Source: Kiloniellaceae bacterium
GTDB taxonomy: Bacteria > Pseudomonadota > Alphaproteobacteria > Kiloniellales > J153
Direction: 5' to 3'
Assembly: GCA_021776135.1 (NCBI GenBank)
Contig: JAJFGL010000056.1
Location: 62,001 to 126,000 of the forward strand
DNA length: 64,000 nt
The notes under the pieces are model-generated. The model was not told where the DNA came from. It was given only the letters and a program-made list of their open reading frames with translations, and ran no database searches. Each line of letters begins with the position of its first letter. Position 1 is the first letter of the stretch. The position numbers and the translations under genes were made by a program. Positions 8,728 through 40,934 of this stretch are shown piece by piece.

Positions 8728-8762
8728 GCGGGCGTGGCGGAACTGGTAGACGCAACGGACTT
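8728..8762 (+). pseudogene. 5' half of disrupted host tRNA-Leu(UAA)
   Basis: The sequence starts GCGGGCGTGGCGGA and runs through the D-arm and the 5' strand of the anticodon stem (ACGGA) to CTT of the anticodon loop. Its acceptor strand pairs perfectly with CGCCCGC at 40924-40930. The anticodon stem pairs with TCCGT at 40887-40891. Beyond 8767 the sequence turns into AT-rich element DNA, so no complete tRNA can be made here. Joined to the 40883-40934 half it forms a normal 87-nt tRNA with encoded CCA. Confidence 0.93.
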
Positions 8763-8767
8763 AAAAT
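8757..8767 (+). repeat. attL core (11-bp direct repeat)
   Basis: GGACTTAAAAT spans the last three bases of the anticodon stem, the seven-base loop and the first base of the opposite stem. The identical 11 bases recur at 40877-40887; flanking bases differ (C/T here, A/C there). Around the uninterrupted target the stem sequences ACGGA and TCCGT form the inverted core sites expected for anticodon-loop integrases. Confidence 0.9.
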
Positions 8768-8915: not shown

Positions 8916-10103
8916 ATGGCGCACCACACATTGATGGGAGGAAAACTCCACCTCTACAAACGCGACAACAGCGGCTTCTGGCAGTGCTCGACCTATCTAT
9001 CGGGCAAGAACCGCCGCCTCAGCACCAAGGAAGAAAGCCTCTCCCAGGCCAAGGATTTTGCCGAGGACTGGTATCTCGAACTGCGCGGTAAACACCGGCG
9101 CGGCGAGATCAAGAACGAGAAGACTTTCCGCGAGGCAGCGACCCAATTCACCCGCGAATACGAGATCATCACCGAGGGCCAACGCAACCCGATCTATGTC
9201 GAAGGCCACAGCACGAGACTCCGCATCCACCTACTGCCGTTCTTCGGCGATATGGGCTTGTCGGAGATCACACCCGGCCAGGTCCAGGAGTACCGCATCC
9301 ACCGGCGGGAAAAGGCGATGGACCAACACGGCAAGCCGCCCGCCCGCAATACAATGCATCAGGAGATCGTCACGCTCCGGCAGACGCTAAAGACGGCCCT
9401 GAGGCATGGCTGGCTGCAATATCTGCCCGACCTGTCCGAGCCCTATAAGAGCTCCGGCAAAATCTCACACCGCGCATGGTTTTCGCCGGAGGAATACAAG
9501 CAGCTTTACGAAGCAACCCGAAAGCGCGCGCAGAAACCCATGCGCAAGCGCTACAAATGGGAGAGCGAACAACTTCACGACTTCGTGCTGTTCATGGCCA
9601 ACACTGGCCTTCGGCCCGATGAGGCATGGCGGCTCGAATATCGCGACGTGAAGATCGTCGATGACGATGCAACCGATGAAACGATTCTGGTAATCGAGGT
9701 GCGCGGTAAGCGCGGCGTCGGTTACTGCAAAAGCACAGCCGGGGCCGTTCGGCCGTTCGAAAGACTGAAAAAACGGAACAAGCCGGAGGGTCGAGACGAT
9801 CCGGAACCGACCGATCCGATCTTTCCGAAAACGCACCGGCAGCTTTTCAATACGATCCTGGACGAGGAAAACCTTAAATTCGACCGCGAAGGCAACAGGC
9901 GCACCGCCTATAGCCTGCGGCACACCTACATATGCCTGCGTCTCATGGAAGGCGCTGACATCTATCAAATCGCAAAAAATTGTCGCACCAGCGTCGAAAT
10001 GATTGAGAAATATTACGCCTCCCATATCAGTACTACGATCGATGCCGCCGCTATTAATGTTCGGCGCCCAAGACCAAATAAAAATAAGGACAGAAATGAA
10101 TAA
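8916..10103 (+). CDS. int: Tyrosine-recombinase integrase of the element
   Basis: The 395-residue protein has a short N-terminal arm-binding region, a SAM-like core-binding domain (about 65-170, including EITPGQVQEYRIHRR) and a C-terminal catalytic domain. Catalytic residues visible are the first Arg in NTGLRPDEAWRL, the His-Arg region in YSLRHTYICLRL, and the Tyr in EMIEKYYASH. It would excise and insert the element at the tRNA-Leu(UAA) anticodon loop. ATG follows GAGG by ten bases. It lies 149 bases inside attL, reads away from the junction and is downstream of the host tRNA promoter, so that promoter may drive it after integration. The element-borne tRNA follows 67 bases later. Confidence 0.92.
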   Translation: MAHHTLMGGKLHLYKRDNSGFWQCSTYLSGKNRRLSTKEESLSQAKDFAEDWYLELRGKHRRGEIKNEKTFREAATQFTREYEIITEGQRNPIYVEGHSTRLRIHLLPFFGDMGLSEITPGQVQEYRIHRREKAMDQHGKPPARNTMHQEIVTLRQTLKTALRHGWLQYLPDLSEPYKSSGKISHRAWFSPEEYKQLYEATRKRAQKPMRKRYKWESEQLHDFVLFMANTGLRPDEAWRLEYRDVKIVDDDATDETILVIEVRGKRGVGYCKSTAGAVRPFERLKKRNKPEGRDDPEPTDPIFPKTHRQLFNTILDEENLKFDREGNRRTAYSLRHTYICLRLMEGADIYQIAKNCRTSVEMIEKYYASHISTTIDAAAINVRRPRPNKNKDRNE

Positions 10104-10170: not shown

Positions 10171-10502
10171 GCGGGCGTGGCGGAATCGGTAGACGCAACG
10201 GACTTGGGTCAAAACTTGAGTGCTCTTCCGGGAAACCGGAGATGTAGAACTGCTCAAATTCGGGGAAACCTGTGAAATGGCAATCCCGAGCCAAGCCTTC
10301 GACGGCACGTGCCGGAGAAGGAAGGTGTAGAGACTAGACGGGCAGCGCCTAAGCCCCGGCCCATGGCCGGGGTACGGTGAAGGGATAGTCCAGACCACAA
10401 AGGCACTCCCCTGCTAAGGGAGTGCGGCGGCGAAAGCCGTAGATGGTACGAAAATCCGTTGGGCGTAAGCCCGTGGGGGTTCGAGTCCCTCCGCCCGCAC
10501 CA
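10171..10502 (+). tRNA. Intact tRNA-Leu(UAA) carried by the element, interrupted by a group I intron
   Basis: Exon 1 (10171-10205) and exon 2 (10451-10502) join to an 87-nt tRNA-Leu with acceptor GCGGGCG/CGCCCGC, anticodon loop CUUAAAA, a long variable arm and an encoded CCA. It would read UUA and UUG codons. Compared with the split host gene, it differs only in the D-loop (ATC in place of ACT after GGCGGA... position) and in the variable-arm loop (GTAA in place of GAAA). It is therefore a separate allele and not a product of this insertion. It lies directly behind the integrase and is co-oriented with it. Because the host gene is broken, this copy probably supplies tRNA-Leu(UAA), unless another copy exists elsewhere. 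Confidence 0.93.
10206..10450 (+). ncRNA. Group I intron (IC3-like) in tRNA-Leu(UAA)
   Basis: The 245-nt intron has group I landmarks. P1 forms between exon ACUU plus intron GGGU and the internal ACUUGAGU, with a U.G pair at the 5' splice site. P2 is UCCGG-GAAA-CCGGA. The P and Q elements are near 10258 (UUCGGGGAAACC) and 10281 (AAUCCCGAGCC). R (AGACUAGACGGG, 10331) and S (AUAGUCC, 10385) form P7. P8 is a CCCCGGC hairpin and P9 is GCACUCCC/GGGAGUGC. The last base is G, as required. Insertion after U34 matches the cyanobacterial and plastid tRNA-Leu(UAA) introns. There is no homing-endonuclease ORF. Confidence 0.92.
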
Positions 10503-10939: not shown

Positions 10940-10957
10940 GTGAAGCAGGGGGACGAC

Positions 10958-12817
10958 ATGCAAAAGCAACAGGTAAATGGCACAAAAAGAAAGATGCCAT
11001 CCAAAACCAGGGCGCTCGATGCTCTTTACGAAAAAGCGCTTCCAGCAAGTCGTACAGGCCATCTGTACAACGCGTTTCCATATCCGACCAAGATTTCCCC
11101 TGAAGCAATTGCCTTGTTCATCGCTGCCCACACCAAGCCGGGTGACACAGTGTTCGACGGCTTTGCCGGAAGCGGTACCACAGGGCTTGCCGCATTGCTG
11201 TGCGAAGACCCGCCCGAAGAGCTCCGCGAAGAAGCGAGGCGATTGGGCCTCAATGTGAATTGGGGTGCACGAAACGCGGTTCTGTATGAGCTCGGTGCGC
11301 TCGGCGCGTTTGTCGGTCAGACCCTGACCAACCCTCCCGTGCCCAAAACCTTTCGCAAGGCGGCTGAAGAGATTTTAGTCGCTTCCGAAGAAGCTGATGG
11401 CTGGATGTATCGTGCCACGGACCCAGAAGGGGGCGACGGTGCAATCCGCTATATGATCTGGTCCGACATACTCTGCTGTCCTGCCTGCGGCAGCGAAGCC
11501 ACGCTATGGGATGCCTGCGTCTCGCTTGGTCCGGCGCATATCGCATCGCGTTTCACCTGTCCTTCTTGTGCTCACGAAGCACCGCTGGATGCTGCCAAGC
11601 GCCTGACAGAAACCGTTTTGGATGACGTTACTAATGAAGACAGAGAACTCAGGAAGCGCTGTCCGGTCCGCATGTACGGGGTCAGCGGAAAAAAGACCTG
11701 GTCGCGTCCGGCCACCGCAGACGATGCGGAGCTGCTGAAACGCATCGCCGCTGAGCCGATCCCGGCCTCGGTTCCGCGCGTGGCCATTCCCTGGGGCGAT
11801 CTATACCGGCGCGGCTACCATCAAGGCGTCACCCATCTGCACCACTTTTACACCCGCCGAAATCTGATTGTTTTCGCACGGCTTTGGGAACGCGCCGGTC
11901 AATATGACAGCCACCTTCGGGACGCATTGCGTTTCTGGCTGCTGAGCTATAACGCCTCTCACGCTACGATCATGACGCGCGTGGTCGCCAAATCCGCTCA
12001 GAAGGATCTGGTTGTGACAAGCGCCCAGCCGGGTGTGCTTTATATCAGCGGCCTTCCCGTCGAGAAGAACCTCTTTGCCGGATTACGGCGCAAGCTCTCG
12101 ACCATTACCAAGGCCTTCGCTGTCATTCACGGACGCAAGGGCAGGGTCGAGGTGCAACAGAAATCAAGCTGCCACGTCGATCTGCCTGATCGCAGTATTG
12201 ATTATGTGTTCACCGATCCGCCGTTCGGCGGCAACATCCCATATGCAGAAATAAGCTTCCTCAATGAAGCCTGGCTTGGGCATTATACAGACCGCAATGA
12301 CGAGATTATCGTCAGTAACAGCCAGGACAAAACGGTCACTGACTACCAGGAGCTTCTAAAGACAGCGCTGAGTGAGGTGCACAGAATTCTGAAACGCGAT
12401 GGTAAGGCAACTCTCGTGTTCCATTCCGCGTCCGCAAATATATGGAACGCACTTCAGACTGCTTACACGGGCGCAGGTCTTGCTGTCGAATGTGCGGGTG
12501 TTCTCGACAAAACACAGGGCAGCTTCAAGCAGGTAACGACGACAGGGGCCGTCCGAGGCGATCCCGTATTGCTCCTTGGCAAGCGCCCAATGGAGGCGGA
12601 GCAATCTATCGAATGTGTCTGGACGGTTGCCCAGCAACTTCGCCAGGAAGCCACATTGACGCTCGACCCCACAGAACAGACAGCACAAAGACTCTATTCG
12701 CGCCTGATCAGCCACTTCCTCGCCAATCATCAGCAGGTACCGCTCAATGCCGACGCCTTTTACAGGTGGCACAACGAGCAGTATTTGGCGGAGGCAGCCG
12801 ATGGCGCAAGGCTCTGA
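10958..12817 (+). CDS. DNA methyltransferase with internal zinc ribbon
   Basis: This 619-residue protein starts best at an ATG after AGGGGG; an in-frame GTG at 10940 is possible. It has SAM motif I (FDGFAGSGTT) near residue 67 and motif IV DPPFGG near residue 420, so it is an amino-methyltransferase (N6-adenine or N4-cytosine). Between them, two CxxC pairs (CCPACG near 173 and CPSCAH near 205) form a zinc ribbon. It overlaps the next methyltransferase gene by 17 bases. As the first of three methyltransferases it probably sets the self mark of a restriction-like system. Target sequence is unknown. Confidence 0.8.
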   Translation: MQKQQVNGTKRKMPSKTRALDALYEKALPASRTGHLYNAFPYPTKISPEAIALFIAAHTKPGDTVFDGFAGSGTTGLAALLCEDPPEELREEARRLGLNVNWGARNAVLYELGALGAFVGQTLTNPPVPKTFRKAAEEILVASEEADGWMYRATDPEGGDGAIRYMIWSDILCCPACGSEATLWDACVSLGPAHIASRFTCPSCAHEAPLDAAKRLTETVLDDVTNEDRELRKRCPVRMYGVSGKKTWSRPATADDAELLKRIAAEPIPASVPRVAIPWGDLYRRGYHQGVTHLHHFYTRRNLIVFARLWERAGQYDSHLRDALRFWLLSYNASHATIMTRVVAKSAQKDLVVTSAQPGVLYISGLPVEKNLFAGLRRKLSTITKAFAVIHGRKGRVEVQQKSSCHVDLPDRSIDYVFTDPPFGGNIPYAEISFLNEAWLGHYTDRNDEIIVSNSQDKTVTDYQELLKTALSEVHRILKRDGKATLVFHSASANIWNALQTAYTGAGLAVECAGVLDKTQGSFKQVTTTGAVRGDPVLLLGKRPMEAEQSIECVWTVAQQLRQEATLTLDPTEQTAQRLYSRLISHFLANHQQVPLNADAFYRWHNEQYLAEAADGARL

Positions 12818-14930
12818 AGCCAGAGATGCCATGCGAGAAGAGGCACGCGCCTATGAAGCAGCGTTGCCCGCGGACCAGCGCAAACAGCTAGGACAGTTCT
12901 TTACCGGCGTTCGCCTCGGCAAGCTTCTCGCCCACCTGTCGCTTCAGTCTGATACGCGCACCGTTCTTGACCCGATGGCAGGTCATGGCGACCTTCTTGA
13001 CGCAACCTGGGAGGCGGCAGGTGAATGTGGCATCACGCTTGACCGGCTTGACGGCATTGAGATCGACATAGCCACAGCTTCCATGTGCCGGGACCGGCTT
13101 TCAGCGATTCGCGCAGAGCATGGAACGTCTGACCAGAAAATCGTGACGGGAAGCGCCTTTGATCCCGAATCGCTTAAGGAATCACCAGAACGCGGCTACG
13201 ATCTGGTCATCACCAATCCGCCATTTGTGCGCTATCAGACGCGCAATGGAAATGGTACCCAGGCCGAAGCAACGCGCTCCGGGCTCTTGGACATCGCAGG
13301 CAGCCAGCTCTCCGGCGATAAAAGCGACATCTGGAAAACTTTGATCAAGGGCTATTCCGGCCTCGCGGACCTTTCTGTCCCGTCATGGCTCCTGGCGGGC
13401 CTTATGGTGCGATCCGGAGGACGGCTTGCGCTTGTTGTGCCCGCTACCTGGCGCTCGCGTGATTATGCCGACGTGATCCGTTACCTTCTCCTGCGTTGCT
13501 TTTCGCTGGAAGCGATTGTCGAGGACACCCAGCCCGGCTGGTTTTCCGATGCACTTGTCCGAACCCATCTCATTGTTGCCAGACGCTTGCCGCCGGAAGA
13601 GGCCCTTAAGCCGCTTTGCGCCAGAGATCGCTGGCCACAGGCGCGATGGCTTCAGGTTGCACCGGACGCAGCGAATGATCAGTCCCTGGTTGGCGCGGCA
13701 TTTGAAGGTCGGCACCCTGAGGCAGCTTTCGCTACGTGGTTCCGCGCCATGAATGCGACAGCGCCGCGTGGCATCAAAGTTCGGGACTTCGACCTCCGCC
13801 ATGAATGGGCTACGCTGCAATCCCGCATTGGCAGGCGGCGTTGGTATCGGAAGCTTGAATGCGGCGGCGAAGAGCTGCCGCTATTTGCTGACCAGAGCGG
13901 TCCCGCGCCTGTTACGATTCCCGATACACTGCGGCATATGCTGCCGCCGCATGCGGAACCTGTTTCACTTGTCTCTCTTGAAGAGGCCGGTATCCGGGTA
14001 GGCCAGGGCCTGCGCACCGGATGCAACCAGTTTTTTTATGTGACCGTATGCAGCTCTTCAGCAGGAGGTACGGAACGCGTCAAGACATCTCCCGCTTTCG
14101 GAGGCCGCGAATTCACCATTCCTTCCGGCGCGCTGCGGTCTGTGCTCCGTCGCCAGTCAGAGATGAGTTATCTCGAAGGCAACATGATGCCGCCAGGGTG
14201 TGTTCTCGACCTGCGCGGCTGGGTGCTACCCGAAGACGCCAAACTCGTGGCAGACGCACAAGACGCCTACACAGCACGGGGCGAGACACCGCCCAGGATC
14301 ATGCCTGATGAACTGGCCGCATTTGTGCGGCACGCGGCGGCGCACGTTCTGACCCAGTCAGACAAGCTCATTCCCAGTCTGACGGCGGTACGCACCAATG
14401 TGCGGGTACCTCGCAACGGCAAGGTCACGCCACGCTTCTGGTACATGCTGCCGGACTTCGCACCCCGTCATCTGCCCGCCGCTTTTGTGGCACGCATCAA
14501 TCACGGCGTGCCCTGGGTTGAGGCCAACTGCGACCCATCCCTGCTGATTGATGCTAATTTCTCGACAATCTGGGCACGGGAGAGGGGCTGGACGCGATAT
14601 GCCCTTAAGGCCCTTCTGAATAGTGTCTGGTGCCGCGCTTTCATGGAGGCTCTTGGCACGCCGCTCGGCGGCGGCGCGCTCAAGCTTGAAGCCACCCATC
14701 TGCGGCAGATGCTTGTACCCCGCCTTACAGATGGAGCGAAGGCTGCACTTGATGCCGCCGGGGAAAACCTAAGCAGAAACTCTGCTGCCATCCAGACGCA
14801 AATCGATGCCGTCGTTTTACAGGCCATTCTCCCGGAGAAGATGGCAGCAAGCGGTTTGCCCGAACTCGCCGCAGATATGGCGGCACGGGCGGATATCATG
14901 CGCGGTTTGCGTCAGAGGGTAGCCTCATGA
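12801..14930 (+). CDS. N6-adenine DNA methyltransferase (Eco57I/class I type)
   Basis: The 709-residue product begins soon after GGAGG and has LGQFFT near residue 33, typical of large N6-adenine methyltransferases. SAM motif I is LDPMAGHGDLL near residue 57 and catalytic motif IV is NPPFVRYQ near 138. The long C-terminal half may be a target-recognition domain: NQFFYVT-type and LNSVWCRAFMEA-type phrases recur in this class. It overlaps both neighbours, including an ATGA overlap with the third methyltransferase, which implies one operon. No nuclease motif is obvious within it. Confidence 0.82.
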   Translation: MAQGSEARDAMREEARAYEAALPADQRKQLGQFFTGVRLGKLLAHLSLQSDTRTVLDPMAGHGDLLDATWEAAGECGITLDRLDGIEIDIATASMCRDRLSAIRAEHGTSDQKIVTGSAFDPESLKESPERGYDLVITNPPFVRYQTRNGNGTQAEATRSGLLDIAGSQLSGDKSDIWKTLIKGYSGLADLSVPSWLLAGLMVRSGGRLALVVPATWRSRDYADVIRYLLLRCFSLEAIVEDTQPGWFSDALVRTHLIVARRLPPEEALKPLCARDRWPQARWLQVAPDAANDQSLVGAAFEGRHPEAAFATWFRAMNATAPRGIKVRDFDLRHEWATLQSRIGRRRWYRKLECGGEELPLFADQSGPAPVTIPDTLRHMLPPHAEPVSLVSLEEAGIRVGQGLRTGCNQFFYVTVCSSSAGGTERVKTSPAFGGREFTIPSGALRSVLRRQSEMSYLEGNMMPPGCVLDLRGWVLPEDAKLVADAQDAYTARGETPPRIMPDELAAFVRHAAAHVLTQSDKLIPSLTAVRTNVRVPRNGKVTPRFWYMLPDFAPRHLPAAFVARINHGVPWVEANCDPSLLIDANFSTIWARERGWTRYALKALLNSVWCRAFMEALGTPLGGGALKLEATHLRQMLVPRLTDGAKAALDAAGENLSRNSAAIQTQIDAVVLQAILPEKMAASGLPELAADMAARADIMRGLRQRVAS

Positions 14931-17900
14931 GCGTTGATCTCGCGCAGGCCAGAGAAGCCATCAGGAGATGTCGGGAATTTCGCGATTCCGGCAAAGTCGA
15001 AGCCGTCCTGCGCGGTGAGTTCCAGTCGCGGTTGCGCCTGATCTTTCCGGCTCCCGACGATGAATCCTGGATCAATCATTACAGCGAAGGCACAGAGGCT
15101 CATACCAAGGTGGGACAGGCCGGTGGCGGGATTGCCAGCCGGTTCATCGATAATCTCATCGGCTCGACCACAATCGAATACGAGGCGGACTTGCGCGTTC
15201 CAGCAAAGCGCGATGAAGGCTTTGCGCAGGTACACGATCACGCAGCCGGTCTGATCCGGGGCGGTGTCCCGTTATCCCAGGTGCGCGGCGTTCTTGCCGA
15301 TACGGTGGACTGGTATGCCTATGACGTAGAGCTTGCGCCGGGTGTCGATCCGGCAGGCTGCACTGTCGATGACATCACTCTGGTTCAGGTTGACACGCTG
15401 GAGCTGATCGCAGATGACGAGCCGTCAGCCGTTCGTCTTATCGCGTTTGTCCGCAAACACCTTGCGCGCCAGCAGTCCCGCCCGCTCAGGGCCGGTTTTC
15501 TCACGCTTGATCTTGGGCTGGAGAGCGGCCCTTACAAACGAAGTGCCGATCCTCTGCGCGAACTCGTTGACGAAGGACGAGAGGCTGATCCGTCCATTGA
15601 GCTGGCAACAGAATTGTGGTCGCGGTTCGTCGATTACCTGGAAGGCGAAGCCGGAGCTTTTCGCTCAGCAGCTTATGTCGATGAAGCTTATCTCTGCATT
15701 CTTGCCCGCCTGCTGAGCGCCAACGTTCTCGCTGGCCAAGCGGCGTCCAGCGATGATGCAGAGCTTAAGGCGATACTGGACGGGACGTATTTTCGCGACC
15801 ATTACCAACTCGGCAACATGGTCGAGCAGGATTATTTCGGCTGGCTCACCAGTCCTGCCCATATCGACGGGCTGGTGCCCATCGCCAGAGAAATCCAGCG
15901 TGACCTCTACGCTTATGATTTTGGCTGGAAATCTGAGGAAGATCTCTTTGGCCGCCTCATGGCGCAGCTTGCGCGCCGCAGCCAGCGCAAGTTGCTGGGA
16001 CAGGAATGGACCCCCGGCTGGCTGGGCCGCCACCTCGCGGAGCGCTGCCTGGATAATCTTCCCGAAGGGGAGAAGCCGCGCATCGTCGATATGTGCTGCG
16101 GCTCAGGCTCGATCCTGGCCGAGGTTCTGAAAGCTGCCAGGGACCGCTTCGGTCTTTCCGAGATCGAAACGCTGCATGACGTGGCAACAGGTTTTGACAT
16201 TGACCCGCTTGCGGTCAGTCTGTCCAAGACGACCTGGGTTGTCACCCTGGCCGATGAAATCAAGGCGGCTACAAGCCCGATTGTCATTCCGGTTTATCAC
16301 GCCGACTCCCTCTTTGCGGTCACTCCGGTTACGCCCGTCCTTCCGTTCTTCGGTGAGAGCGATACAATTGACGTGTCTTTGGACGGGACAACGATCAAAC
16401 TGCCCGATGCCGTGATTCAGCCTGAATACCGCGAGCTGTTCGACCGGATTATCGACTGGGCTTATGACGAGGCGATCGATGCCCAGGCAAGGGGCAACGC
16501 CGCCCACCTGAACGAAGAGGCCACGGGGCAGTTCCTGGACGGCGCGGCAGGCGCTTCCGGTATCACTCTTCCCGCAGAACTCATAGAGGTGTTGACGCCC
16601 GCCGTCTTTGCGCTGGTGCACCGCATGGCTGAACTAGCGGTTGCGGGGCGCAATGGTATCTGGGCGTTCATCCTGCGCAACACCTACCGGCCAGGACTTC
16701 TCAGCGGACAATTCAACGGCCTCGTATCCAATCCGCCCTGGCTTGCCATGAGTCGTCTTGCGGATAATCCCTATCGGAACGTCCTTACAAACCGGGCGAA
16801 GCTCTATGGCGTCCGTCCTACGGGTCAGTCTTTTTTGCACCTGGAACTCGGCACAACCCATCTTCTCCATGCCATTGATCGTTATCTTTCTCCTGATGCG
16901 GCAGTCGCCTGTCTGGTGCCGGGTACGGTGTTCAACGGCCATCATCACGAACCCTTCCGCCAGCGTGAGTTCCTGACCAGCAAACGCCCTGTGTCGCTTG
17001 AGATCAGTGAAGTGTGGCAGGTCCAGCCGGGAACATTCAAGTATCCCGGTGCCGCTATCATCGGCCATAAGCGCACCGCGTCCGGCGGACTCAAGACGAA
17101 AGCGATCAGCGGATTTCTCGTTCGGGAGTCCGGCGTTGAGGCCGCAGACTTTTCGACCCGTGCCATCGGAACGAAGCGCACAGCCTGGGTGCTTGAAAAA
17201 GAGGGGCTGCCAATTGCCGCTTCCGCTGCTACCACTTTGCCTCAGCAGGGGGCCGATCTTATGCCGCGAACAGCGGTTTGCATCGAGGTTCTTAATGCAA
17301 ACGGCGCGGAATACAGGGTGGATACGCCGTCGCGCGATTCAGCATGGGGCTTTACGGTCAAGGCGGCAAAGGAACTCAAGGAAGAGCGTTTTCCCGGCCA
17401 TGTCGCACCCCGTTTTATTCATCGCATGGCACAATCCGAAAATCTCCTTCCTTTCGTTCTTGGTGAACATTGCGCGCCTATCGCTATTCCCGCTTTACGG
17501 GATAGCCATGGCGTCTGGCAGACTTACGATGAGGCTGACATTCGCCGCATGGGGTTTACGGAGACGGCAAGGCGGTTTCGCGCCATCAATGGCCGGCTGA
17601 AACAAATCGGGCAGGGTAAGTCCCTTCAGGAACGTATAGACGAACGCGGAAAACTGACAAAACAGGTTCTCGGCGATACCGGCCATCTCATCGTCGCCGG
17701 TGCCGGCGGGAAACATATTTGCGCGGCCTGTATTCCGCTTGCCGGTGGGAGTGATCTGGCCGTAGATCAGACTCTTTACTGGCAGGTTATTCAGAGCGAA
17801 GAGGAAGCCTGGTTTCGCGTCGGCATGCTGAACAGTCATGCCATGACCGAAGCAATTACGCCCTTTAACCCCAAGGGCGCATTCGGCGAGCGCCACATTC

Positions 17901-18187
17901 ATGCTCTGCCTTACCGTCTTATGCCCGCCTACGATCCGTCTAACGAGGACCACGAGCGAATTGCCATACTTGCACAGCAGATGGCAGGGCAGGCGCGGGC
18001 TATGGTTGTCGCGGATGCCTATCTGGGCGATCCGAACAGGGCTCTGACCGCTCGTCGCAGCAGACTTCGCGAAGCTCTTCGGGGAACCGCCGAACTTCAG
18101 GAGCTGGAACAGCTCTGCGCTGCTGCGCTTGGTACGACGGTTTTTGAAGAAGAAGCAGGCGATACCGCAAGTGGTGGCCCGGCATGA
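14927..18187 (+). CDS. Large DNA methyltransferase/restriction-like protein
   Basis: The protein is 1086 residues. About 370 residues precede a methyltransferase core with motif I VDMCCGSGSI near residue 388 and a motif IV variant SNPPWLAMSR near 601. The N-terminal region could hold a nuclease or regulatory domain, but I see no confident PD-(D/E)XK motif in it. The C-terminal part resembles target-recognition regions of type IIG-like enzymes. NPPW in place of NPPY/F is common in this class. ATGA overlaps at both ends tie it to the second methyltransferase and the small nuclease, so the three are probably made together. Confidence 0.78.
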   Translation: MSVDLAQAREAIRRCREFRDSGKVEAVLRGEFQSRLRLIFPAPDDESWINHYSEGTEAHTKVGQAGGGIASRFIDNLIGSTTIEYEADLRVPAKRDEGFAQVHDHAAGLIRGGVPLSQVRGVLADTVDWYAYDVELAPGVDPAGCTVDDITLVQVDTLELIADDEPSAVRLIAFVRKHLARQQSRPLRAGFLTLDLGLESGPYKRSADPLRELVDEGREADPSIELATELWSRFVDYLEGEAGAFRSAAYVDEAYLCILARLLSANVLAGQAASSDDAELKAILDGTYFRDHYQLGNMVEQDYFGWLTSPAHIDGLVPIAREIQRDLYAYDFGWKSEEDLFGRLMAQLARRSQRKLLGQEWTPGWLGRHLAERCLDNLPEGEKPRIVDMCCGSGSILAEVLKAARDRFGLSEIETLHDVATGFDIDPLAVSLSKTTWVVTLADEIKAATSPIVIPVYHADSLFAVTPVTPVLPFFGESDTIDVSLDGTTIKLPDAVIQPEYRELFDRIIDWAYDEAIDAQARGNAAHLNEEATGQFLDGAAGASGITLPAELIEVLTPAVFALVHRMAELAVAGRNGIWAFILRNTYRPGLLSGQFNGLVSNPPWLAMSRLADNPYRNVLTNRAKLYGVRPTGQSFLHLELGTTHLLHAIDRYLSPDAAVACLVPGTVFNGHHHEPFRQREFLTSKRPVSLEISEVWQVQPGTFKYPGAAIIGHKRTASGGLKTKAISGFLVRESGVEAADFSTRAIGTKRTAWVLEKEGLPIAASAATTLPQQGADLMPRTAVCIEVLNANGAEYRVDTPSRDSAWGFTVKAAKELKEERFPGHVAPRFIHRMAQSENLLPFVLGEHCAPIAIPALRDSHGVWQTYDEADIRRMGFTETARRFRAINGRLKQIGQGKSLQERIDERGKLTKQVLGDTGHLIVAGAGGKHICAACIPLAGGSDLAVDQTLYWQVIQSEEEAWFRVGMLNSHAMTEAITPFNPKGAFGERHIHALPYRLMPAYDPSNEDHERIAILAQQMAGQARAMVVADAYLGDPNRALTARRSRLREALRGTAELQELEQLCAAALGTTVFEEEAGDTASGGPA

Positions 18188-18645
18188 TCGATCTTGAGAA
18201 AGCAGGAAAGATTCTCGAACGCGCCCGGGAGGCAGCGATTGACTATTACGACCTCACCGGTAAACCGCTCGGAATCACGGGTGAAATTGGCGAATATATG
18301 ACGGCCAGGCTTCTTGGACTCGAACTCGCCGATGCCAGGGCGGCCGGCTATGATGCGACAGATAAGAAGGGCCGAAAGATTCAGATCAAGGCCCGCAGCA
18401 TTCCAAGTAAAAAGAAACTTTCCGGCCAGATCGGCTCTATCAGTCTCGATCATGAGTGGGATTGCGTCATGTTTATCCTACTTGATGAGCGGTTTGAGCC
18501 GCAGGCTATCTTTGAGGCTGATCGCGGTGCGCTGGAAGCTGCACTCGCGAAACCAGGAAGCAAGGCGCGCAACGAACGGGGTGCTCTTTCAATCAGCAAA
18601 TTCAGGAGTGTTGGAATGCAGATTTGGAGCGCTGATAGCGCATAG
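18184..18645 (+). CDS. Small PD-(D/E)XK-like nuclease subunit
   Basis: In this 153-residue protein GEIGEYMTARLLGL is followed by GYDATDKKGRKIQIKAR. That is a Glu, an Asp and a Q-x-K arranged as in Mrr/type II restriction nuclease cores. It shares an ATGA overlap with the large methyltransferase. The simplest reading is that it is the DNA-cutting subunit matched to the methyltransferases. It could instead be a DNA-binding member of the same fold without catalysis. The downstream ATPase gene starts 47 bases later. Confidence 0.65.
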   Translation: MIDLEKAGKILERAREAAIDYYDLTGKPLGITGEIGEYMTARLLGLELADARAAGYDATDKKGRKIQIKARSIPSKKKLSGQIGSISLDHEWDCVMFILLDERFEPQAIFEADRGALEAALAKPGSKARNERGALSISKFRSVGMQIWSADSA

Positions 18646-18692
18646 GTACTGGAGAAATCATCATACCAAGGTAAATCACGGGTTTTTTTTGA

Positions 18693-20996
18693 ATGCTTAC
18701 GGAGGTCAAATTCATACAGAGTATCGGGCGGTTTGAAACGGCCAAACCGACCCGTGGTGCGACTTTCGGCCCCCGCACCCTGATCTTCGGCGAAAACGGG
18801 TGGGGAAAATCCACCCTTGCCGATATTCTGCGCTCTCTTACCACGAATAATCCCGCCATTCTCGCAGGGCGCGCGACGCTTGCCGCCGACGCGCCGCCAA
18901 AAGCAGTGCTTGCCTTTGGCACGCAGAACGCCGTTTTTGAAAATGGTGCATGGTCCGGTCCCCGTCCGCGCATCGCCGTTTATGACAGCGCCTTTGTCAA
19001 TGATAACGTGTTCTCGGGCGATATCGTTTCCGCCGAGCATCTGAAGAACCAGTACGGCCTTGTCGTCGGCGAGGAAGGCGTGCGCTTTGTCCGGCGTATC
19101 GTCGAACTTGATGATGCTAACCGCGAAAACAACAAGGCCATCACGGCGGCAGAATCCGGGCTGAAAGCTGTTATGCGCACCATCGCCCCTCCGGCGATGA
19201 AGCTGGATGACTTTCTTGCCCTTGAAGCGCGCGCCGATATTGATGAGGCAATCACCAGGCAGGACGCACAAGTCCAGCAGGTGCGGCGCGCAGGCGAACT
19301 CAAAGCCGCCGCTGAACCGGCGCTGTTTCCGGTCCCGACCGAGACTGCAACGTTTCGCGATCTTCTGGGCAAAACCATTGATGATATCGCAGAAGAAGCA
19401 CTCGCCAGGGTACGTGCTCATATTGCTGCGCATGAGTGTGCGCCGCAGAAAGGCGATACGGCGCATGAAAGCTGGCTTGAAACAGGCATGGCCTTCGTGC
19501 AAACGGACAATTGCCCGTTTTGCGGCCAGCCCCTTACCGACCGAAATCTTGTCGATGCTTACCGGGATTTCTTTAGCGAGGCATATAAAACGCTTGGCGC
19601 ATCGCTCAAGAAGGTTCGCGATACTTTCGCCCGCTATGAAAGCGGCGACTTTCGCCAAACAGTTTCACGCCTTTCAGAGCAAAATGCCGGGCACTTCACG
19701 TATTGGCACGAGGCCGGAAAGATCAGCCCGCCCGATACGGGAGACACGGACGCCATCATCACGCAGATGGAAGGCGCAGCCGCCGGGCTTAACGCCCTGT
19801 TCGCACAGAAGCAGGCAAATCTGACAGAGGCGATTTCAGGCGCGGAGACGGGCGCGGCTTTACCTGCGTGGGAGGCCGGGCGCGATCAGCTCGCAGCGCT
19901 CAACACAAAAATCGAAGCCTTTCTTGCTGCGATCAAGGTGCTTAAGGAGTCCATCAATCCCGCCGCGTTGCCCGGCCTTGAAAGCGAACTCAAAATTTTG
20001 CAGGCCACAAAGCGCAGACATGAGGCTGATATCATTGCGCAGGCCACAACGCTTGGTGAATGCCACGTCATGAGAGATGCCATAGCCAAAGAAAAAGCGG
20101 CAGTGCGCACTGCGCTGAGTGATCACGGGCGCGTTATCACCACCGATCTTGGCACAGCGATCAACACCTACCTGAAACGGCTAGCCGCAGGATTCAGGAT
20201 CGATTACCAGGAACCCAACTACCAAACAAAAGAGCCGTCGGCGAGCTACAACATCCTCATCAAGGAGGTGCCGGTATCACCGCGCAGCAATGCCGGAGAA
20301 CTCGACAAGCCGAGTTTTCGGAACACACTCAGCGGCGGTGACAAGTCCACTCTCGCTCTTGCGCTGTTTCTGGCTAAAGTCAATGCTGATCCAAAGCTTG
20401 ATGAAACAATTGTCGTTCTCGACGATCCCTTTACCAGTCTGGATAACTTTCGCCGTCAGTTCACTGCCATAGAGATCAGGAAACTTTGCGGGCGCGCTCT
20501 GCAAACAATCGTGCTTTCGCACGAGAAGAGTTTCCTGCGCCTGCTTTGGGACAAGATCGACCAGAGCACGATTTCATCGCTTGCCCTGCAATCGGGGGCA
20601 CCGGGGATCACGACAATAGCGCCATATGATATCGAAGCGGCGACACAACCGCGCTATATCACCGAGCGCATGCAGATTGAGGAATTCGTGGAAGGCGAAC
20701 AGCACGAGCTGAATTACATCAGGACACGGCTGCGCACCGTTTGTGAAGATTATTACCGCAAGGGCGAACCGGCCCTGTTTCGGGAAGCTGCCAGTCTAGA
20801 AGAGATCATTCGCGGTCTTGAACAGGCGCCGGATGATCATCCCTACAAAGGCGCGCTTGAAGATTTACGCGACATCAACGAATACTCCCGTGGCGACAGC
20901 CATGCTGCCGTGCCAGGCAGTCCTATCGAAGAAACAAGTGTTGAGGAACTAAAGGAATTTTGCCGCAGGGTACTCGATCTTACCCGTGGCATGTGA
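18693..20996 (+). CDS. AAA_13 zinc-hook ATPase, RloC/PrrC-like candidate anticodon nuclease
   Basis: In this 767-residue protein, Walker A is FGENGWGKST (about 32-41) and a zinc hook NCPFCGQPL lies near residue 272 within coiled coil. The ABC signature LSGGDKST is near 546, Walker B VVLDDPFTSLD near 574 and the H-loop LSHEKSF near 608. Near the C-terminus R681-x3-E685 is followed 31 residues later by H716, matching the order and spacing of the PrrC catalytic triad (R320, E324, H356). PrrC and RloC are NTP-driven anticodon nucleases held silent by restriction systems. Next to a methyltransferase cluster, a guard role is plausible. The triad match is by eye only. Confidence 0.72.
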   Translation: MLTEVKFIQSIGRFETAKPTRGATFGPRTLIFGENGWGKSTLADILRSLTTNNPAILAGRATLAADAPPKAVLAFGTQNAVFENGAWSGPRPRIAVYDSAFVNDNVFSGDIVSAEHLKNQYGLVVGEEGVRFVRRIVELDDANRENNKAITAAESGLKAVMRTIAPPAMKLDDFLALEARADIDEAITRQDAQVQQVRRAGELKAAAEPALFPVPTETATFRDLLGKTIDDIAEEALARVRAHIAAHECAPQKGDTAHESWLETGMAFVQTDNCPFCGQPLTDRNLVDAYRDFFSEAYKTLGASLKKVRDTFARYESGDFRQTVSRLSEQNAGHFTYWHEAGKISPPDTGDTDAIITQMEGAAAGLNALFAQKQANLTEAISGAETGAALPAWEAGRDQLAALNTKIEAFLAAIKVLKESINPAALPGLESELKILQATKRRHEADIIAQATTLGECHVMRDAIAKEKAAVRTALSDHGRVITTDLGTAINTYLKRLAAGFRIDYQEPNYQTKEPSASYNILIKEVPVSPRSNAGELDKPSFRNTLSGGDKSTLALALFLAKVNADPKLDETIVVLDDPFTSLDNFRRQFTAIEIRKLCGRALQTIVLSHEKSFLRLLWDKIDQSTISSLALQSGAPGITTIAPYDIEAATQPRYITERMQIEEFVEGEQHELNYIRTRLRTVCEDYYRKGEPALFREAASLEEIIRGLEQAPDDHPYKGALEDLRDINEYSRGDSHAAVPGSPIEETSVEELKEFCRRVLDLTRGM

Positions 20997-34507: not shown

Positions 34508-36037
34508 CTACCCCATCGCGTCGTACTTCCCTTCAAACACCGGGTCCGTGTGATAGACGACCCGTTCCAAAACCATCGGCGGCTGACCCGCCCAGATCAC
34601 CAGTTGCCGCCGCTGCGGATCGTCGCGCCCGAAAAACCGGCTGGCTTCCTCCGGCGTGAGCAGATCGTAAAGTTCGATCCCCCAGGACTCGCCGGATGCA
34701 CCCTTCATCCGTTGCTCATGCGTCGTTTCCGATTCCCGCCGCATGCGGATCGCCGTCTTGCCGAGCCGCTTGGATATGAAATCCAGCGTGCTCATATCGT
34801 TGTTGCCGAAAAACTGAATCACCCCGGCATTGCCGAGGAAAGTTTCCCATCCCTCGCGGTAATCGCGTTTCAATTGCGTGAGGTCTTGCAGGATCGGCCA
34901 GAGCTTCACCCCGAAGCCCGCGATCTGTCCCGCCGCCGCTTCGATCTGCCGCATGTGGCCGAGCGCCGCAAATTCGTCGAGGCACATAAGAACGGGGACC
35001 GGCGGAACGGTTTGCTCCCGCTCCATGGCTTCAAGGGCCAGGTTCACGAACACCCGGAACCACCGACTGCATGTGGCGAGCCGCGTCGCCGGCAGACACA
35101 GATAAACCGTCATGCCTTCCGGCGCGGTTTTCATATCCGTGAGATCGAAATCGTGACCCGTCAAAACTGATTGCAGATTCGGGAAGTCCAGAAACTTCGT
35201 ATGACGCCGCGCGGTCGAAAGCACCGATCCGCGCTCAACGTCCGGTTTGTCGAAAAAATCCGACGCGGCTCCCTCGATGGCCGCCGTTGTTCCTTCATCG
35301 TGCTCCGCGTGTACCTCGACGTTATGCAACATCTCGACACGGAGACCCTGCATGCCATGCGCTTCCCTTTCACCGTGCGCGATGTGCGCGCCGTTCATCA
35401 GAAGCTTGCGCACCGTCACCAGATTGCGCTGGCCCTCGTAACCGGGATAGGTGGCGACATGAAGAACGATCCCTTCGATGAAGTTGCGCGCGCTGTCATC
35501 CCAATGCGGATCGCTGCCCCCGGCGATCACCAGCGCGTCGGCAATGAGTCCCGCATCCTCGACAAGCGTTGCGCTATCGGGTTTTAGGATCGACAAGGGA
35601 TTGTACGAAGCCTTGTAAGGCGCGACCCGTGGTTCGGCCCGGTCGAACGGGTCAAGCACGTAAACGCGCTGTCCCAATCCTTCCGCGCGCCGCCGCGCGG
35701 TAATGTTCGCGAGCTCGGCCTTCGGGTCGATGGCGAGCACGCTCCCCTCATAAAAAATCAAATTCGGCACGATGGCCGAAACGCCCTTGCCCGCGCGCGA
35801 TCCGGCGACGGTCATGATATGACGGTTGTCCGCGACACCGACCAACTGGCCGTCGAGCGCGCCAAGTAGCATTTTGCGGCCCGGATTGGCCGGATCATAA
35901 GCGAACGTCCCGGACGACGCGATAAGGTCCGGCGGCATCCAGGCCGCAAGCGGCGTGCGGTGATCATGCAGCTTGCGCGACCGCACCCCGCGCGGAAGAT
36001 CGTCGAGTACCTTTTCCTTTTCTCCGGCCAACGCCAA
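34508..36037 (-). CDS. VirD4/TraG-family type IV coupling ATPase without visible membrane anchor
   Basis: The 509-residue protein has Walker A GSRAGKGVS (about 79-87), Walker B VLMCLDEFAALG near residue 350 and the family motifs DPKAEL and SWGIELYDLLTPEEA. It would pump the relaxase-DNA complex into a secretion channel. Canonical VirD4 has two N-terminal membrane helices; here the N-terminus is hydrophilic. The start is TTG; a second TTG two codons later is better spaced from AGGAG. It is eight bases downstream of the lipoprotein gene. No VirB genes accompany it, so it must dock on a foreign channel. Confidence 0.85.
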   Translation of the reverse strand: MALAGEKEKVLDDLPRGVRSRKLHDHRTPLAAWMPPDLIASSGTFAYDPANPGRKMLLGALDGQLVGVADNRHIMTVAGSRAGKGVSAIVPNLIFYEGSVLAIDPKAELANITARRRAEGLGQRVYVLDPFDRAEPRVAPYKASYNPLSILKPDSATLVEDAGLIADALVIAGGSDPHWDDSARNFIEGIVLHVATYPGYEGQRNLVTVRKLLMNGAHIAHGEREAHGMQGLRVEMLHNVEVHAEHDEGTTAAIEGAASDFFDKPDVERGSVLSTARRHTKFLDFPNLQSVLTGHDFDLTDMKTAPEGMTVYLCLPATRLATCSRWFRVFVNLALEAMEREQTVPPVPVLMCLDEFAALGHMRQIEAAAGQIAGFGVKLWPILQDLTQLKRDYREGWETFLGNAGVIQFFGNNDMSTLDFISKRLGKTAIRMRRESETTHEQRMKGASGESWGIELYDLLTPEEASRFFGRDDPQRRQLVIWAGQPPMVLERVVYHTDPVFEGKYDAMG

Positions 36038-37052: not shown

Positions 37053-37659
37053 CTTCCCCTCCTCTTTTTCCGGCCGCCGCGCCTCTTGACGCAGAGTCCT
37101 TTTCCGTACCGGCGCGGTCGGGTTGTCTCTCGATGCCGCGCGCTAGGCACTGTCCAGGGTTAGATTTCTCGTCCTGGCAATCGCCCAGAGCCACAGCCAA
37201 TGGCAGCGCCGGCAATTCTGACGCCATTGTGAACTCGATGCTAAACCCAGTCGCGTGAGGATGGGGAGTCATTTTCGCGTGTTGAGAGCAGCCAGCAGCA
37301 ATTTTTGCGGCTCCAACCTTTGATAGGTAGCGATTATTTTTTACACCAGAGCAGGGTGTTAGAGAATGTTAAACTACCCTTAAGGATATTATGTAAAACT
37401 AAAGGTTGTGTGGAGGGCGCACTTTTGGGTTTGCAGCGCAAACCCGCGCCCAGGCTCAACGGGGGAGGCTCCCCCAAGCCGCGAGGCTTCCCCCTCATCC
37501 GGCCCTCATGGGAAATGGAGGGCCGGAGCAATCGCGACGTTCCCGACAAAGCGTCGCGCTTGCAGAAACCGGCTCCCGCCGGTGATTAAGGGCTGCCCGC
37601 CCTTAAAAATCCCGGCCGGAGACAGCGGCTCCGAACCCGCTAGCGTGGGGGTGTGGGCA
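37053..37659. other. Divergent control and oriT region with multiple hairpins
   Basis: The gap between divergent lipoprotein and relaxase genes has no coding sequence I can support. It holds the oriT core and further inverted repeats: GGGGGAG-G-CTCCCCC (37461) and CCGGCCCTC/GAGGGCCGG (37499/37518), plus AAGGGC/GCCCTT near 37585. The AT-rich section around 37330-37400 probably contains promoters. Confidence 0.6.
37412..37445 (-). other. oriT: Origin of transfer core (oriT, RSF1010/MobQ type)
   Basis: Read on the minus strand, a perfect 8-bp inverted repeat (GGGTTTGC, loop GCT, GCAAACCC) is followed directly by AAAAGTGCGCCCTCC. RSF1010-group and related oriTs have the same order: an inverted repeat then TAAGTGCGCCCT, with the nick in the GCGCCC part. 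The site lies about 215 bases before the relaxase start, the usual place. The nicked strand would be the minus strand. Confidence 0.85.
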
Positions 37660-39180
37660 ATGGCGATATATTCGTGCAACCTGAAAAGCATCGGCCGCAC
37701 AACGCACACGGCAGGCACGGCCGGGGCGCATATTCGCTACATTAGCCGCCCGGACGCGCAGCCGACGATCCTCGCCGAGCATATGCCCTACGATCCGAGC
37801 GACGCGCGCAACTGGACCGACCGCGCCGAACGCGCTTCCCGGAAGAATGCCCGCGTGCTGGATAAAATCAGGATCGCCCTGCCCCGCGAACTGAGCGACG
37901 TGGAGCGCGCCGCCCTGGTCGAGGAATACATGGCCGATCTCGCAGGCGGGCGGCGCGTGCCGTGGTACGCCGCCATTCATCAGACCGGTAAGGATACCCT
38001 CAACCCCCACGTCCATATCGCCGTTCATGACCGCGATATGGACACCGGCAAGCGCGTATTGCGCTTGTCGGACAGCGCGCGTGACCGCGCCAAGGACGGC
38101 CTTCCCGGCCCCAAGGCGGTGGATTGGATCAGAGAGCGATGGGAAGAAACATGCAATCGCGCCTTGGAGCAGGCCGGTCACGACCTACGCATCGACCGTC
38201 GCACCCTGGAAGCGCAGGGCCTCGACCGGGAACCGACAATCCATATCGGTCCCCGCGCAAGCCACATCGACGGCAATGTCAAACGCCCGGAATCCAAGCG
38301 CCGGGTCAACGGCTGTGGCCGTGTGATCGATTACCCTGTCATCGACAAAGGAAAGACCCGGCGGGAATTCAATGCACAGATCGTCGATCTGAATTTAGAG
38401 CGCGCCGCCCGTTCCGAGAACCCTGCCACTGCGGCTTGGGCGGCCTTCGAGAAAGACCAGATCGAAAGAGACCGGTCGCTCGAAGACCGGCTTGCCGCCG
38501 AGAACCGGCAACGCACGGCCCAACTGCGTAACACGGCCAATATCTACAACGCGCGCATTGCGCGTCTCCGCGCCGAAAATCGACTTAAGCAACGACGCGC
38601 ACAGACCCTGGTACACGAACGCTTCCAGCCGGCCCGCGAAAACCAGCAAGATCGCCAACGCCGCGAGCATAAGGCTCTCAAGAGCAAACACGGGCGGCTC
38701 TATATGCGGCTTCTCACAGCCATCGATATTACCGGAACCTCCCGTCGCCGGCAGGAAGCGGCGCGCAGATCGCTTAGCGCAGCGCACAGGACCGAGAGAC
38801 GGGAATTTGCAGATAGATACCGCCAGGCCCAATCTGCGGCGTCGGCGGCTGTCAAATCCCACTATAGCGACCGGTTGACAGAAGTCCGTGAAAAGAGGTC
38901 TGTCCACCTCGCGCAGCTTCAGGAGCGCCATGATGAGGTGGAACGTTTCGCGGATGCGGAACGACAACGTCGCGAAACGGATCGCGAGCACGCCCGCCAA
39001 ATTACCGAACGGAAAATTCAGGATTGGGTGAAGGGCCGCAAACAGGCTTCCCGTTCGGAAACGCAGGGCAAACAAGAGGACAGCGCCTTAGCCCGTGCCT
39101 TCAACAAAGCGACCAAAAAAGAACAAAAAAGACCCCTACAAAGGCCCGGTGGACGGGGGCGGACCTACCGTCCGTCCTAA
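37660..39180 (+). CDS. mobA: MobQ-type relaxase (MobA/MobL family)
   Basis: The 506-residue protein starts MAIYSCNLKSIGR. The HUH metal triad lies in NPHVHIAVHD (H117, H119, H123), with a probable catalytic Tyr at 27 (RYISRP). The N-terminal 250 residues are the relaxase; the rest is a long charged coiled coil ending SALARAFNKATKK. It nicks oriT, stays bound to the 5' end and leads the strand into the recipient. The ATG was chosen because upstream codons are low-complexity and overlap the oriT hairpins. The adjacent oriT matches the family expected for this relaxase. Confidence 0.88.
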   Translation: MAIYSCNLKSIGRTTHTAGTAGAHIRYISRPDAQPTILAEHMPYDPSDARNWTDRAERASRKNARVLDKIRIALPRELSDVERAALVEEYMADLAGGRRVPWYAAIHQTGKDTLNPHVHIAVHDRDMDTGKRVLRLSDSARDRAKDGLPGPKAVDWIRERWEETCNRALEQAGHDLRIDRRTLEAQGLDREPTIHIGPRASHIDGNVKRPESKRRVNGCGRVIDYPVIDKGKTRREFNAQIVDLNLERAARSENPATAAWAAFEKDQIERDRSLEDRLAAENRQRTAQLRNTANIYNARIARLRAENRLKQRRAQTLVHERFQPARENQQDRQRREHKALKSKHGRLYMRLLTAIDITGTSRRRQEAARRSLSAAHRTERREFADRYRQAQSAASAAVKSHYSDRLTEVREKRSVHLAQLQERHDEVERFADAERQRRETDREHARQITERKIQDWVKGRKQASRSETQGKQEDSALARAFNKATKKEQKRPLQRPGGRGRTYRPS

Positions 39181-40876: not shown

Positions 40877-40887
40877 GGACTTAAAAT
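40877..40887 (+). repeat. attR core (11-bp direct repeat)
   Basis: GGACTTAAAAT is identical to the left core. It is preceded by AT-rich element DNA (AATACAATAAAA) and followed by the 3' anticodon stem of tRNA-Leu. Crossing over between the two cores would restore a complete host tRNA gene. Confidence 0.9.
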
Positions 40888-40934
40888 CCGTTGGGCGAAA
40901 GCCCGTGGGGGTTCGAGTCCCTCCGCCCGCACCA
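40883..40934 (+). pseudogene. 3' half of disrupted host tRNA-Leu(UAA)
   Basis: The sequence runs from the AAAA of the anticodon loop through stem TCCGT, a long variable arm (GGGCGAAAGCCC), the T-arm with GGTTCGAGTCC, acceptor CGCCCGC and an encoded ACCA. The corresponding 5' half is 32 kb away at 8728. No promoter or replacement 5' half precedes it, so it cannot yield a tRNA. Confidence 0.93.

Follow-up and report, generated by a model that had tools for sequence, protein, structure and literature searches.

The nearest published counterparts of the system presented here are of several kinds. Classical gene-restoring tRNA islands (Islander, PMC4383910) use a tyrosine integrase at tRNA genes. 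In the tRNA-dependent lysogeny of actinobacteriophages (Guerrero-Bustamante and Hatfull 2024, PMC10865867), a tyrosine integrase acts on a core of 8-17 bp, the host tRNA is not reconstructed, and a tRNA of the same isotype is both carried and needed; the same authors speculate that an unprotected plasmid-borne tRNA may act as a bacterial attachment site (attB) for tandem integration. A group I intron is known in the anticodon loop of cyanobacterial and plastid tRNA-Leu(UAA) (PMC4476775), archaeal tRNA introns have been proposed to guard their genes against integrating elements (Randau and Soll, as cited in PMC4390854), and intron spread by integrating elements is credited to Sugahara et al. 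(as cited in PMC8371274). The locus analysed here lies in a 64,000-nucleotide (nt) stretch of a Kiloniellaceae genome (GCA_021776135.1, contig JAJFGL010000056.1), hereafter the window, to which all coordinates refer. It consists of a 32-kb element at 8757-40887, bounded by two copies of an 11-bp core, GGACTTAAAAT, where the host gene for tRNA-Leu(UAA) is divided, and it carries a replacement tRNA-Leu(UAA) interrupted by a group I intron. The element belongs to the tRNA-dependent type of integration known from the actinophages, with an intron in addition.

The split tRNA is rebuilt at neither junction, the left one (attL) retaining only the 5' half (8728-8762) and the right one (attR) only the 3' half (40883-40934), the latter matching the carried tRNA's exon 2 at 98% identity. 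Uninterrupted copies of GGACTTAAAAT number exactly two in the window, those at the junctions (Table 1), against a chance expectation of 0.01. The integrase gene starts about 150 bp inside the left junction, and the carried tRNA-Leu(UAA), complete at 10171-10502, begins 67 bp after it. The same gene is called by ARAGORN when introns are allowed, while the default scan, in which they are disallowed, gave no call; similarly, the Rfam Intron_gpI match at 10196-10403 covers the full model with 49.5 bits (E 1.8e-11), just below the curated cut-off of 50, and is therefore absent from a default Rfam scan. The sequence-only reading had placed an intron without endonuclease after U34, dividing the core into GGACTT and AAAAT, 245 bases apart, and this description is borne out base for base, the 245 nt leaving no room for a homing endonuclease. 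Upon joining, exons 1 and 2 give GGACTTAAAATCC, which contains the exact core, its DNA copy being divided by the intron. Group I hallmarks are present, namely the conserved paired core, a U at the 5' splice site, and the terminal G, and alignment of 29 introns showed a conserved group I core, the terminal G, and compensatory changes in 24 of 49 predicted pairs. The intron structure is judged from this comparison to be under selection, and the pre-tRNA is predicted to self-splice to a normal tRNA-Leu(UAA).

A search of the host assembly with a pattern for the 5' part of UAA and CAA tRNA-Leu genes returned one CAA gene and the interrupted half only, with no second contiguous tRNA-Leu(UAA), which makes the carried gene the apparent sole source of this tRNA in the host. 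A DNA search of the same assembly matched, besides the element, only a UAG tRNA-Leu gene. The assembly is 97.9% complete, and a further tRNA-Leu(UAA) copy might lie in its unassembled part.

These features suggest a route by which the intron could serve the element. Integration in the tRNA-Leu(UAA) anticodon loop destroys the gene, and the element would survive through its complete carried replacement. As the halves of its core stand 245 bp apart in the DNA, the replacement would go unrecognised by the integrase, so that neither attL nor attR would undergo the recombination with it that deletes the integrase gene, and incoming copies would be barred from the only working tRNA-Leu(UAA). The tandem integration into a carried tRNA speculated upon for the actinophages is the problem that the intron would thereby solve. 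The intron was probably acquired ready-made with its tRNA-Leu(UAA) gene and later kept for the benefit of protection.

The integrase was then used as query against about 1,670 whole genomes and a named genome collection, and the flanks of each match were read; in phage and plasmid collections, few close relatives were found. The relatives follow two modes. In the first, an intact tRNA (Met, Arg, Phe, Gln, or Trp) lies upstream of the integrase, as in classical gene-restoring islands, whereas in the second, that of the present element, the 5' half of a split tRNA-Leu lies about 140-160 bp upstream. At the attR of about a dozen relatives, the sequence common to element and tRNA is ACTTAAAA or ACTCAAAA at the least, the minimal shared core being ACTYAAAA, which corresponds to tRNA positions 31-38, essentially the anticodon loop. 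Intron-bearing carried tRNAs comprise 38 distinct complete ones (37 of the UAA type and one, at locus L065, with anticodon CAA), together with seven truncated or moved, such as L094, where the intron-bearing tRNA is on the other strand, 4.7 kb away. The intron is inserted after U34 in UAA carriers, and the joined exons read GACTYAAAATC, recreating the core, in all 38 complete cases. Elements that split tRNA-Leu(CAA) carry either no tRNA (mainly in Acidobacteria) or a mostly intronless tRNA-Leu(CAA); the CAA tRNA may be dispensable, since tRNA-Leu(UAA) can also read UUG. A role of the intron in regulating tRNA output, for example by making supply dependent on splicing conditions, is regarded as highly improbable: group I splicing requires guanosine and correct folding, which would suit such control, but no sequence feature suggests it, and intron length (204-281 nt among the carried tRNAs) and peripheral domains vary freely.

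The intronless carried tRNAs differ from their targets in a manner that concurs with avoidance of the core. Positions 30/31 are not GA in nine of 16 intronless carried tRNA-Leu lineages, as against three of 80 natural alphaproteobacterial tRNA-Leu(CAA) (P 1.5e-6, or 7e-4 once look-alikes are collapsed), and they deviate in none of the 38 intron-bearing carried tRNAs. These changes usually come with a changed partner base that keeps the pairing, G30-C40 becoming C-G and A31-U39 becoming U-A. Inside the 8-bp core, 11 of the 16 intronless lineages differ from their own target. Two loci uncouple the intron from the anticodon. L060, the only intronless UAA carried copy, has its 30-40 pair flipped, while in L065, the CAA copy with an intron (11395-11715), the splice site is shifted by one base, to after U33 instead of U34, the internal guide has gone from UUGAGU to UGGGUC, which fits the new exon junction, and the exon pairings are kept; to judge by these pairings, L065 is a natural re-targeting of a group I intron. 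Its sister L096 lacks the intron and shows a C32-to-U change. On the integrase tree, intron presence changes nine times, and among independent pairs, four to five associate the intron with an intact core and none shows the opposite. That carried tRNAs are usually unlike the target, by an intron or by changes in the anticodon stem or loop, indicates selection against carrying a functional attB.

A related possibility is that the protection is directed at other elements: with the intron in place, no integrase that targets the anticodon loop could use the sole functional tRNA-Leu(UAA), and later arrivals could neither kill the host nor displace the element. This loop is the target of many different elements of the family, and a split core would block all of them, in parallel with the archaeal proposal of tRNA introns guarding against integration, at least as PMC4390854 relates it from Randau and Soll. 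Sequence cannot separate such shielding from self-immunity, but the base changes at 30/31 better fit avoidance of one specific core, and shielding against other elements is considered improbable as the main account.

Several observations weigh against self-immunity. The paired test on the integrase tree reaches only P = 0.06, the pairs being too few for significance. The natural control is alphaproteobacterial only, while several altered copies come from Acidobacteria, Phycisphaerae, or gammaproteobacteria, the GTCTCAAAAAC copies in particular belonging to phyla outside the control set. C32-to-U changes are common in nature (15/80) and make weak evidence, and the intact exons of intron-bearing copies are not independent evidence, because splicing needs the same sequence. 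Within the same integrase family, an unaltered core is found in three intronless carried tRNA-Leu lineages (L049/L051, L053, and L312), and in L060 and L100 the change is limited to positions 30 and 40, the 8-bp core being intact. At L317 (G406:C5:98181-99326), where the integrase family splits tRNA-Tyr, both the attL core and the carried intronless tRNA-Tyr read GACTGTAAA. Five actinophages that show tRNA-dependent lysogeny, or are closely related to phages that do, were compared with the core of the phage attachment site (attP) alone. The carried tRNA agrees with this core in three (Gabriela, MsGreen, and OneUp) and differs from it in two, Fionnbharth (31/39) and Gaia (32). Insertions into carried tRNAs, intron-bearing or intronless, were sought and none was seen, so the supposed harm was not observed. 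Finally, introns of the same family occur in many phage tRNAs without this integrase, and a pattern search of 179 alphaproteobacterial genomes found nine tRNA-Leu(UAA) introns in all, six of which, in as many genomes, are free-standing, with no integrase of this family within about 8 kb. Two broader propositions were discarded: that every carried tRNA must be protected, in view of L049/L051, L053, L312, and L317, and that no elements but those of this family have the intron, in view of the six of nine introns just described. A third, that actinophage carried tRNAs are generally protected, finds no support, with only two of five altered.

The main rival is passive inheritance. Under it, an ancestor would have captured a tRNA-Leu(UAA) with a widespread group I intron, precise loss being rare and the anticodon loop being favoured by integrases and introns alike. 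Free-standing and phage tRNA-Leu(UAA) share this type of intron, the position after U34 is usual for its class, and four intronless intact-core lineages persist. All of this agrees with such a history, as does the weak correlation between intron and integrase distances (rho 0.20, P 0.02), of the kind that partial co-inheritance would give. Nonetheless, it leaves unexplained the frequent 30/31 changes in intronless copies, the altered L060, and the shifted intron of L065; a free-standing gene with the intron occurs in only about 3% of alphaproteobacterial genomes, whereas the intron is present in nearly every UAA element; and the intron tree needs at least three transitions between element and non-element copies. 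Passive inheritance is rated as a possible but rather unlikely explanation. The intron tree is poorly resolved, with element, viral, and three free-standing copies intermingled, a topology that allows several captures. Regarding the free-standing cases themselves (L337-L342, in G172, G095, G133, G103, G074, and G083), those of G103, G074, and G083 group apart, and the other three, which mingle with element introns, could be relics of lost elements.

Considering all of the above, self-immunity by disruption of the core is favoured, with slightly more confidence than doubt; no other single explanation fits what is seen across the family as well, since the intron and the compensated stem changes both follow from it. 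The survey of related elements that had been suggested along with the sequence-only reading has thus been run, and nearly every UAA carrier has an intron while many intronless carried tRNAs have an altered core, a pattern that favours the proposed role of the intron in integrase self-immunity. The proposal is at the same time curtailed by the free-standing and phage introns and by related elements with intronless, intact-core replacement tRNAs, part of what it had named as contrary evidence, which are found in at least four lineages (L049/L051, L053, L312, and L317). These exceptions mean that protection is not obligatory. Immunity is therefore a plausible role that probably contributes to retention of the intron, though neither obligatory nor demonstrated. 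The wider formulation, in which a self-splicing intron acts as a DNA-level mask with the target restored in RNA, and the family as a whole solves the problem either by an intron that can be shifted and re-guided with a new anticodon or by compensated stem swaps, is held to be an even proposition.

Other relatives display further arrangements. At L098, L113, and L117, tRNA-Leu(UAA) is split and no replacement was found within 2-10 kb downstream of the integrase. At L107/L154, attL is a tRNA-Leu(CAA) half and the carried tRNA is of the UAA type with an intron, an apparent recent target switch, and L014 and L084 are distant integrase relatives with an intronless carried tRNA-Leu(UAG). L025 (G017:C1:2942531-2946688) is a related element now in a tRNA-Met site. 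Downstream of its integrase lie another tRNA-Met, intact and initiator-like, at 268 bp and, at 670 bp, a decayed tRNA-Leu(UAA) with an intron relic that lacks the 5' exon, as expected if a replacement persists only while it is needed. In L049, L051, L052, L060, L077, L085, L091, and L143, the core beside the integrase has element-like arms on both sides (the attP form) and no tRNA half, possibly through tandem insertion or another integration route; in L051 and L077 a tRNA-Pro lies 5-7 kb upstream. Upstream of the integrase in L094, L110, L114, and L071, the attL core is followed by a sequence, CTTCCAGT...GTTCGA, that looks like the 3' half of a tRNA lacking the long variable arm and may be left over from a restoring attP.

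The remaining features of the element are collected in Table 1. Its mobility genes, from a search that covered part of its genes, are those for the integrase, a MobA/MobL relaxase, and a coupling protein, and because the latter two are encoded, it is probably an integrative mobilizable element. The methylase and AAA cargo probably serves defence.

Table 1. Features of the element and its junctions, by position in the window.
Feature	Position	Strand	Evidence or remark
attL, 5' half of split host tRNA-Leu(UAA), ending in core	8728..8767	+	GCGGGCGTGGCGGAACTGGTAGACGCAACGGACTTAAAAT, then element DNA
att core GGACTTAAAAT, left copy	8757..8767	+	
Tyrosine integrase of element	8916..10103	+	Translation; weak matches to Phage_integrase and Phage_int_SAM; relatives up to about 82% identical
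Exon 1 of carried tRNA-Leu(UAA), ending GGACTT at U34	10171..10205	+	
Group I intron, 245 nt, terminal G, without endonuclease; splits att core after GGACTT	10206..10450	+	RF00028
Exon 2 of carried tRNA-Leu(UAA), AAAATCC...CACCA, CCA end encoded	10451..10502	+	
Cargo: DNA methylases (PglX-like, Eco57I-like, type IIG-like) and AAA protein	10940..20996	+	
Type IV coupling protein	34508..36037	-	PF02534, E 2.9e-70
MobA/MobL relaxase	37408..39180	+	PF03389, E 1.8e-25
att core GGACTTAAAAT, right copy	40877..40887	+	
attR, core and 3' half of split host tRNA-Leu(UAA)	40877..40934	+	

If self-immunity holds, it would be a definite, selected function of a bacterial group I intron besides homing, and would explain how an element can destroy an essential tRNA gene without turning on the replacement that it carries. 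The long-standing idea that introns in archaeal tRNA genes keep elements from integrating would likewise become a simple recombination question, with L060, L065, and L312 as natural controls. No publication linking a group I intron to the protection of a carried tRNA from integration was found in a search that left most subscription journals outside.

Compared with known systems, the element resembles the Islander islands in the use of a tyrosine integrase at a tRNA gene, as close relatives of its integrase do at Met, Arg, Phe, Gln, and Trp genes, but unlike them it restores nothing at its junctions. With the cyanobacterial and plastid intron (PMC4476775) it shares the gene, the group I class, and the anticodon loop; the present intron sits in an element-borne replacement gene, beside an integrase that attacks exactly that site. 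As in the archaeal proposal, in the form cited, an intron would remove an integration target from a tRNA gene; there, however, it is a host gene that is said to be protected, and introns are cut by proteins, whereas in the present case a ribozyme would protect the copy belonging to the element. The closest likeness is to the actinophages of PMC10865867, with which the element has in common a tyrosine integrase, a short core, an unreconstructed host tRNA, and a carried tRNA of the same isotype. It differs from those phages, for which no intron is described, in being an apparent integrative mobilizable element with an integrase of another family and with the core split in its carried gene.
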